NCBI GenBank assembly: GCA_018060625.1
Contig: JAGOVS010000003.1
Span: 1 to 64,000, forward strand
Source: Bacteriovorax sp.
GTDB taxonomy: Bacteria; Bdellovibrionota; Bacteriovoracia; Bacteriovoracales; Bacteriovoracaceae
Length of the DNA stretch: 64,000 nucleotides
Direction: 5' to 3'
A program made the position numbers and the translations under genes. Shown here in pieces: positions 7,638 through 51,831 of this stretch. Each line of letters opens with the position of its first letter. Position 1 is the stretch's first letter. The notes under the pieces are model-generated. The model ran no database searches, was not told the DNA's origin, and saw nothing but the letters and a program-made list of their open reading frames with translations.

Positions 7638-8156
7638 TTATTTTTTTTGAAGCTCTTCTATTCTATTGGCCACTCTTTGAGCATCGGTAATGGGATCGAC
7701 ATCTTTTGAGATATCACGCACGATAAGCTCAGGATCAATGATATAGGTCCATCTTTTGGAATAGTTCACCACGGCCATTTTGGCATCATAAAGTTTAGTA
7801 ACTTCAGCCTTTTCGTCTGCGAGTAGAGTAAAATTGAGATTGTGATTTTTAGCGAATTCGGCCTGCTCTTTGACGGAGTTGGTGCTAATTCCAAAGACTT
7901 CTGCTTTGAGGGCTCGAATTTTTTTTATATTATCGCGAAAACTACAGGCCTGTTTAGTGCAACCTGGTGTTTCGGCCTTTGGGAAAAAATAAAGGACAGT
8001 CCAGCTTCCTTTTCGGGAGTTAAGATCAAAGAGAGTTCCCTCTTGAGTCATCACTTTAAATGGTTTCGCTGGCCCATTGATTTTGATTTCTTCAGCGGCC
8101 TTTGCCAGCGGAGAGAGAAGGGATAAGAGAAAAATAAGTTTTAATATTTTCGTCAT
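7638..8156 (-). CDS. bcp: Periplasmic peroxiredoxin, Bcp/PrxQ type
   Basis: 172 residues. A signal peptide (about residues 1-20, ending AKA) precedes an AhpC/TSA-Bcp domain. The peroxidatic Cys66 is in ETPGCTKQAC, with the resolving Cys71 five residues later (CX4C), the atypical 2-Cys PrxQ layout. It should reduce hydroperoxides in the periplasm using thioredoxin-like donors; most Bcp proteins are cytosolic, so export is noteworthy but known in some lineages. There is no ribosome-binding site before ATG 8156, and the only good promoter would start transcription at or next to the ATG, suggesting a leaderless mRNA. Confidence 0.85.
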   Translation of the reverse strand: MTKILKLIFLLSLLSPLAKAAEEIKINGPAKPFKVMTQEGTLFDLNSRKGSWTVLYFFPKAETPGCTKQACSFRDNIKKIRALKAEVFGISTNSVKEQAEFAKNHNLNFTLLADEKAEVTKLYDAKMAVVNYSKRWTYIIDPELIVRDISKDVDPITDAQRVANRIEELQKK

Positions 8157-8162
8157 GATCTG

Positions 8163-8191
8163 ATAATATGTTGAAAATTAGGTGCCATCAA
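8163..8191 (-). promoter_or_regulatory. Putative promoter of bcp, -35 inside the palindrome
   Basis: Minus strand: TTGATG (8186-8191), 17-nt spacer, TATTAT (8163-8168). The expected start point is close to 8156, the A of the bcp ATG. The -35 element is part of the left arm of the 54-bp palindrome. Confidence 0.5.
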
Positions 8192-8234
8192 CCAATTTGT
8201 GTCGCAATTGCGACACAAATTGGTTGATGGCACC
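8181..8234. repeat. Perfect 54-bp palindrome
   Basis: Positions 8181-8207 are the exact reverse complement of 8208-8234 with no spacer. The ends read GGTGCCATCAACC and GGTTGATGGCACC; the centre is GTCGCAATTGCGAC. It lies between bcp (-) and the methyltransferase gene (+), ending 17 nt before the latter's ATG. It shares GGTGYCA/TGRCACC ends with the palindrome at 51751-51799. Candidates are a REP-like mobile palindrome, an operator, or a cruciform or terminator-like element; there is no U-run on either side. Confidence 0.9.
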
Positions 8235-8250
8235 CTTCGAGGAAGTAAAA

Positions 8251-8949
8251 ATGAATGGTGTGTTGACATTGATACCGACGCCTCTTTCTGAAGATGGGGT
8301 TCTTGAGCCAGTGGCCTTTGGGATTTTGGAAAAGGCGGCAACGCTTCATAGGGAAACTTCAGTTTTCGTGATTGAGGACTTAAGACCAGGGCGCAGGCGA
8401 TGGTTGCAATTTAAATTACCTCGAGTCGTGGTGGATGAATTTGTCTTGTATAACGAGCATACTGCAGCAAATGTTTCTAAGGACCTTGTTTTGGAATTGA
8501 AGTCGGGAAAAAATGTGTTTTTAATGAGTGATGGGGGACTTCCTGCTTTTTATGACCCGGGAATTGAGTTAGTGAGAATGTGTCACCAGCAGCAAATTCG
8601 TGTGACTTCTACTCCTTTTTGCAACTCTGTCGTATTAGCTTTAGCTCTGTCTGGTTTCTCTCATAAAAAATTTTGGTTTGAAGGATTTTTGCCTCTGGAA
8701 AATACTGAGCGCTTAGCTGTGCTTAAAAAGGCCATTGGGGCAAAGCATACAAGTATTATGATGGACACACCTTACAGGTTAAAGCGCGTTTTAGAAGAAC
8801 TGAGTGAAGTGGGAGTGGGTTCAAAAAAGATATTTGTCGCTCTTGATCTCAATAATCAGAGCGAAGAGCTCCTCTTGGGAAGTCCCACAGAGCTTTTAGG
8901 GCGCATAAAGGAGTTCAAAAGAGAGTTTATCCTGATTGTTTCCGAGTAA
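8251..8949 (+). CDS. RsmI-like SAM-dependent methyltransferase (tetrapyrrole methylase fold)
   Basis: 232 residues from ATG 8251, chosen because GAGGAAG precedes it; a longer frame from 8182 would translate through the palindrome. It begins LTLIPTPLS and contains MSDGGLPAFYDPGIELVRMC (about 92-111) and the CNSVVLALALSG / FEGFLP motifs, matching the RsmI/YraL-like branch with the SAM pocket at GLPAFYDPG. RsmI methylates C1402 of 16S rRNA, but this shorter form belongs to a paralogous set of unproven substrate also found in Bacteroidetes. It is first in the operon with the mevalonate genes, 41 nt before fni. Confidence 0.7.
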   Translation: MNGVLTLIPTPLSEDGVLEPVAFGILEKAATLHRETSVFVIEDLRPGRRRWLQFKLPRVVVDEFVLYNEHTAANVSKDLVLELKSGKNVFLMSDGGLPAFYDPGIELVRMCHQQQIRVTSTPFCNSVVLALALSGFSHKKFWFEGFLPLENTERLAVLKKAIGAKHTSIMMDTPYRLKRVLEELSEVGVGSKKIFVALDLNNQSEELLLGSPTELLGRIKEFKREFILIVSE

Positions 8950-51726: not shown

Positions 51727-51750
51727 AGAGTTCACCACTTGCGCGAAATT

Positions 51751-51799
51751 GGTGTCAAATGGATTCCTCGATAGCTATGCGAGGATCCAAGTTGACACC
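51751..51799. repeat. Imperfect palindrome with GGTGTCAA/TTGACACC ends
   Basis: Arms 51751-51770 and 51780-51799 pair over the outer 8 bases and the inner CCTCG/CGAGG, with bulges between; the centre is ATAGCTAT. The ends match the ends of the perfect palindrome at 8181-8234 (GGTGYCA...TGRCACC). It lies 25 nt upstream of the regulator ATG and 32 nt after the end of the DUF4360 gene. Probable REP-like element or operator. Confidence 0.7.
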
Positions 51800-51831
51800 A
51801 CTTTTGATTTTCTAACTTGTCTTTATCAATT

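Follow-up and report, generated by a model that had tools for sequence, protein, structure and literature searches.

A 54-bp palindrome between bcp and rsmI in Bacteriovorax sp. as a probable mobile repeat of a resident RAYT system

What is a perfect 54-bp palindrome doing between a peroxiredoxin gene and an isoprenoid operon? The palindrome occupies positions 8181-8234 of the 64,000-nt stretch of Bacteriovorax sp. DNA analysed here (the window), where it is the sole long perfect palindrome. An earlier note, based on the letters of the window, had considered a REP-like mobile element, an operator for a dimeric regulator and a cruciform switch, and had raised the concern of an assembly fold-back. 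We followed these options with searches of the same genome and of its relatives, with folding predictions and with comparisons to published repeat systems.

The palindrome and its neighbours

An inverted-repeat search reproduced the geometry given in the earlier note, a spacerless palindrome with exact 27-nt halves: the arms, 8181-8207 and 8208-8234, are 100% complementary with 0 nt between them. By our own arithmetic (4^-27 x 3.3e6) the chance of a 27-bp perfect arm pair in 3.3 Mb is about 1e-10, and as a DNA hairpin the element has a predicted energy of -31.6 kcal/mol (z -13.4). The features of the site are as follows.

7638-8156, minus strand: bcp-like peroxiredoxin gene, a host neighbour (ORF list, profile searches)
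8163-8168, minus strand: -10-like TATTAT for bcp, with a spacer of 17 to TTGATG
8181-8234, no strand assigned: 54-bp perfect palindrome, two inverted 26-nt arms about a central AT; putative non-autonomous repeat element (repeat search, family copies, folding)
8181-8206, plus strand: left arm GGTGCCATCAACCAATTTGTGTCGCA, with one mismatch to the family arm pattern
8186-8191, minus strand: possible -35 hexamer TTGATG for bcp within the left arm, a weak match used with the -10-like TATTAT
8204-8211, no strand assigned: tip GCA-AT-TGC, common to both arms (copy comparison)
8209-8234, minus strand: right arm, whose minus-strand reading is the 26-nt sequence of the left arm (repeat search, arm pattern)
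8239-8245, plus strand: ribosome-binding site GAGGAAG directly downstream of the palindrome (sequence)
8251-8949, plus strand: rsmI-like 16S rRNA methyltransferase gene, a host neighbour (ORF list, profile search), kept in all 13 congeneric genomes

The bcp start codon (8156, minus strand) and the ATG of the rsmI-type gene (8251) are at distances of 24 and 16 nt from the palindrome. The earlier note had thus placed it correctly, beside bcp and just before the ribosome-binding site (about 8239-8245) of the first operon gene. Its description of the operon as a mevalonate operon holds for the isoprenoid genes that come next (idi-2, HMG-CoA reductase, MVD and a GHMP kinase), but not for the first gene, which is the rsmI-type methyltransferase. 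The palindrome is absent upstream of rsmI in 13 of 13 congeneric genomes; in three of them (G006, G011 and G004) bcp and rsmI lie divergently side by side without it. Since none of the 13 relatives has it there, the palindrome most likely arrived at this site by insertion in the lineage of the window. Comparison of the family copies revealed no target-site duplication at the insertion.

The repeat family and its transposase gene

The genome searched is a Bacteriovoracaceae MAG (3.26 Mb, 296 contigs, 90.8% complete), and copies were counted by sequence searches. A whole-genome search with the element, as the earlier note had proposed, returned 26 alignments (both strands) at 13 places, and the arm pattern, allowing up to 3 mismatches, gave 21 arm matches on 14 contigs vs 0 for a reversed control pattern. 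The window palindrome is one of about 13 dispersed copies. The others comprise seven copies with both arms, one end being damaged in two of these, and five half-copies. These copies, and the transposase gene that carries the same arms, are located as follows.

C38, C84, C104, C177, C216 (the window) and C241: two-armed copies, all 54 bp
C162: two-armed copy with the end of one arm lost
C119: two-armed copy with the outer left arm replaced
C173, C179, C215, C238 and C127: single-arm copies
C201:183-818, minus strand: RAYT gene (PF01797 above cut-off; arms on both sides)
C201:176-985, no strand assigned: 810-bp element, the RAYT gene within terminal inverted repeats (arms 176-201 and 960-985)

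The majority of the copies are intergenic and mostly adjoin gene 3′ ends, several at 2-9 nt from the end of an ORF, and terminator-like T-runs precede the copies at C173, C127 and C201. The basic unit is about 31 nt long (GGTGCC...GTCGCANNTGC) and is found single, in inverted orientation at the two ends of the RAYT gene, and in inverted pairs; the 54-bp palindromes are such pairs, overlapping at the tip GCANNTGC. All five half-copies break at one point, GTCGCA-NN-TGC followed by AAA, so that they stop after the equivalent of GCANNTGC and before the AAA. A single unit folds no better than its shuffles (MFE about -1 kcal/mol). The central dinucleotide differs among copies (AT, GT, AG, AC, GG), and because the centres of the sibling copies vary, the zero loop of the window copy reflects a chance AT at an unconstrained centre. 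In G007 and G002 a spacer of 6-7 nt lies between the inverted units, and in G004, G011 and the window's genome the units overlap at the tip; the palindrome is therefore an inverted doublet of a unit of roughly 24-31 nt.

Searching 36 relatives with the full element returned just one half-copy, in G004, and a scan of 84,980 species genomes, a set from which the window's own genome may have been left out, gave no match to the exact 38-nt core. The G004 half-copy (C82, L020), which belongs to the window's own family, lies right after a terminator T-run. Rfam gave no match above its gathering score, and its sub-threshold matches, to miRNA hairpins only, were discarded. The pattern GGTGYCA...TGRCACC, also put forward in the earlier note, led (gaps 8-38) only to an unrelated single-copy quasi-palindrome at 51751-51799 and not to the family. 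Over 51746-51804 this quasi-palindrome reads GGTGTCAA...TTGACACC, with a 9-nt loop.

Five Y1 transposase genes were found in the window's genome by a PF01797 search. One of them, present in a single copy, is the RAYT gene on C201, flanked by 27-bp perfect inverted repeats with outer ends at 176 and 985; its stop codon falls inside one of these arms. No comparable flanking inverted repeats were seen at other Y1_Tnp genes of the genus, including the four paralogues in the same genome. The protein (about 190-211 aa) matched NF047646 (REP_Tyr_transpos) with E 1e-16, a value that is nevertheless below that model's cut-off, and NHYH and Y-x-Y-QNP (the Y---NP type) are invariant across the RAYT alignment. 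The window arm AACCAATTTG differs from the RAYT gene's own arms AACCCAAATG, and therefore the window copy was not derived directly from the C201 element.

An orthologous RAYT, 45-65% identical, is encoded in 10 of the 13 congeneric genomes, and arm-like repeats border the gene in at least four congeners (G011, G004, G003 and G002). Inverted arm copies lie at the gene in G011 (GGTGCCACTAGACTT), G004 (GTTCCAGGAGACTTTTGGGGA) and G003 (GGTGCCAGCAGACTTGTGGTAG, one copy being more distant), and in G002 and G005 sequence related to the arm reaches into the end of the gene; in G009, G001, G008, G010 and G006 a matching pair of long inverted repeats at the two gene ends was either not found or is degenerate. 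More widely, terminal inverted repeats of 15-39 nt flank many genes of the RAYT clade in Bacteriovoracaceae, Halobacteriovorax and Bdellovibrionales records. Dispersed copies of an arm are strongly concentrated in the genome where that arm borders the RAYT gene: the G011 arm has 41 matches in G011, 25 in G007 and at most 3 elsewhere, and the G004 arm has 26 in G004 and at most 6 elsewhere. Despite its 25 matches, G007 yielded no RAYT of this clade, and the repeat family and the transposase can thus be uncoupled. Many of the G011-type matches in G007 are half-copies ending in YGC (L070, L078, L083, L085, L087, L089, L091, L093, L186-L195). In G011 several palindromes cluster on both sides of the RAYT gene, with a BIME-like look (C94:128000-141500). 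Short tandem duplications border many palindromes in G011, G004 and G007 (L172, L174, L175, L176, L179, L181, L182, L184, L193); they consist of an arm terminus plus 5-12 nt of flank (for example GGAACCTATTTGGAACCTATTT and GGCACCTGCTCAGCGGCACCTGCTCAGC), which looks like a double copying of the junction.

Mobile repeat or regulatory switch

Because the family is dispersed, a cognate RAYT gene carries the same inverted arms, and the orthologous sites of the relatives are empty, the palindrome is probably a non-autonomous mobile repeat of the resident RAYT/TIRYT (Y1 HUH transposase) system, a reading to which we assign a probability of about 0.88. Of the options named in the earlier note, this is the REP-like mobile element, and it gains support from these comparisons.

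The main competing explanation, which we regard as improbable, is that the palindrome serves bcp, the rsmI-isoprenoid operon or both as an operator for a dimeric regulator or as a cruciform or mRNA-hairpin switch. Its placement between two divergent genes would suit such a role, and two features of the site speak for it. As the earlier note had claimed, the palindrome supplies a promoter element to bcp, a -35-like TTGATG (8191-8186) 17 nt from TATTAT, although the match is weak (9 of 12 consensus positions) and chance alone would give 0.8 such sites in the region. A transcript that reaches rsmI by way of the palindrome is predicted to form a very stable 25-bp hairpin that ends before the ribosome-binding site, the predicted 123-nt rsmI leader folding at -56.8 kcal/mol. 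Against a regulatory element stand the copies at more than 10 unrelated loci, mostly adjoining gene 3′ ends, the lack of the palindrome upstream of rsmI in every congener, arms that flank a transposase gene, and the drift of the arm sequence among copies, unlike operator half-sites. The operator and switch options thus found no support, and neither did a dedicated regulatory role in general; the -35-like box and the leader hairpin would be by-products of any insertion here. A modest effect on expression, through the 5′-leader hairpin or the -35 box, is possible. The earlier note had also argued that the lack of a T-run speaks against an ordinary terminator. In the minus direction a stem followed by ACCTAATTTT does score as terminator-like, yet one such site is about what shuffles yield (0.8 expected), and a terminator was rejected as the primary explanation.

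Even less probable is a MITE of a classical DDE insertion sequence, with the RAYT gene at the same locus only by coincidence. A transposase gene enclosed by terminal inverted repeats of 26-27 bp, together with short non-coding derivatives, does resemble an IS/MITE pair, but the only ORF of at least 60 aa that fills the 810-bp element is the Y1 RAYT itself, orthologous RAYTs elsewhere are bordered by their own repeats, and no target-site duplication is visible. An IS200/IS605 insertion sequence was also rejected, as the motif is Y---NP and not Y---Q and the gene is not present in several near-identical copies.

An assembly fold-back, although the bin is fragmented and the palindrome loopless, is very unlikely and the weakest reading of all: the flanks are unique and non-inverted and continue into bcp and rsmI, a gene pair also adjacent in three relatives, the family sits at more than 10 other loci, many sibling copies have non-palindromic centres, and analogous elements occur in independently assembled genomes. 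The premise that so long a perfect palindrome is unstable through SbcCD cleavage is weaker than the earlier note had it, because the SbcCD study, by its accessible text, used a 460-bp palindrome (PMC4245961) and because several intact palindromes of 51-54 bp occur in the window's genome and in G004.

Copying of the palindromic form and its known counterparts

The family copies vary at arm positions 11 and 14-18 (AACCAATTTG, AACCAAATTG, ACCCAAAATG, ACCCTTTTTG and others), and the opposite arm is changed in complement. Among eight two-armed copies, 96.2% of pair cells are standard and six pairs show double changes, a score reached by none of 500 shuffles; when arms were re-paired across random copies, equally few mismatches arose in 0.3% of permutations (P 0.003). 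Arm sequences diverge between copies but agree within each copy, so it is the hairpin form that is copied or maintained. A plausible course of events is that the single-stranded palindrome would fold into a hairpin during replication, that the RAYT would cut and join the folded strand at the unit ends, and that copies would be joined into single-stranded DNA elsewhere, in many cases next to gene 3′ ends and terminators. The match between the arms could persist in either of two ways: the folded form may itself be the unit of copying, or fold-back synthesis may template one arm from the other. What is recognised should be the doublet hairpin or a pair of units, since a unit on its own does not fold.

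We consider it rather doubtful that the perfect palindromes of this RAYT clade arise in place through fold-back synthesis. Here the transposase would cut a single unit at its self-complementary tip GCANNTGC, and the 3′ end would snap back (GCA with TGC) and prime copying of the arm, leaving an exact second arm and an uncopied NN loop. The five half-copies ending at the tip and the matching of arms within copies fit this idea, as do inverted flank extensions in G004, where inverted sequence carries on for 6, 7, 6, 4 and 8 nt into the copy-specific flanks of five perfect-arm palindromes and for 0 nt in three imperfect ones (L178-L182). In permutation tests of three genomes the extension was significant in G004 (P 0.00035), marginal in G011 (0.054) and absent in the window's own genome. 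The same pattern would arise if the elements had inserted into short palindromic targets.

Among known systems, a RAYT repeat of this kind comes closest to the TIRtron/REPIN class and, going by the accessible text of Di Nocera et al. (2013, PMC3733652), fits the TIRtron/TIR-family description better than that of the GTAG REPs, because the GTAG foot motif and the unit hairpin are absent. As described there, long inverted repeats with no relation to GTAG REPs enclose a Y1 transposase gene and can overlap its end, and TIR families are dispersed and moderately abundant, with single or dimeric members, some wholly self-complementary. Correspondingly, our RAYT carries the class 2 Y1 HUH signature (HUH and Y---NP), and its long terminal inverted repeats (C201:176 and C201:985) belong to a dispersed family. 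By inspection the arm lacks the motif GGGGWSAS, which in that text is common to some TIRs only, the others being unrelated to each other. The units here start with GGTNCC and end with YGC, and the dimers overlap at the tip, giving near-perfect palindromes with covarying arms. No Bdellovibrionota example was found in the accessible text of that paper, and a literature search found no paper on such repeats in Bdellovibrio-type bacteria, which falls short of proving their absence.

By its anatomy the system appears to work like a REPIN/REPtron. The accessible texts on those (Nunvar 2010, PMC2817692; Bertels and Rainey 2011, PMC3116915) likewise describe non-autonomous, dispersed, genome-specific inverted doublets of a short unit and a cognate RAYT gene flanked by inverted units. 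There, units fold into hairpins with a 5′ GTAG/GTGG at the foot, whereas here a unit by itself stays unfolded, and the foot is GGTGCC, with no conserved GTAG or GTGG before it in the copies; REPs usually exceed 100 copies (PMC2817692), and the arms here number about 20-40 per genome. Double-foot REPs of TnpAY1 subclass 2.4, for which an origin from an inverted REP dimer by deletion of its centre has been suggested (Quentin et al., 2018, PMC6006769), also form one long hairpin symmetrical at both feet; they differ in the foot (GT[AG]G/C[TC]AC vs GGTGCC/GGCACC here) and in the Y motif (YIxNNP vs YIYQNP here). E. coli TnpAREP (PDB 4ER8) is of the same HUH/Y1 family by profile match (E 8e-8 with the RAYT family profile), but its subclass has DHLH, YIHYNP and a median length of 165 aa.

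As about 13 scattered copies belong to a repeat that also forms the ends of a transposase gene, the palindrome is best read as a passenger mobile element that probably landed between two genes, rather than as a gene switch or an assembly error. An odd isolated palindrome thereby becomes part of a documented RAYT-linked repeat system in Bdellovibrionota, in a genome group with several RAYT lineages, each with its own palindromes at modest copy number. Such genomes lend themselves to work on the copying of RAYT repeats, on the reason for their palindromic form and on the possible templating of one arm by the other.
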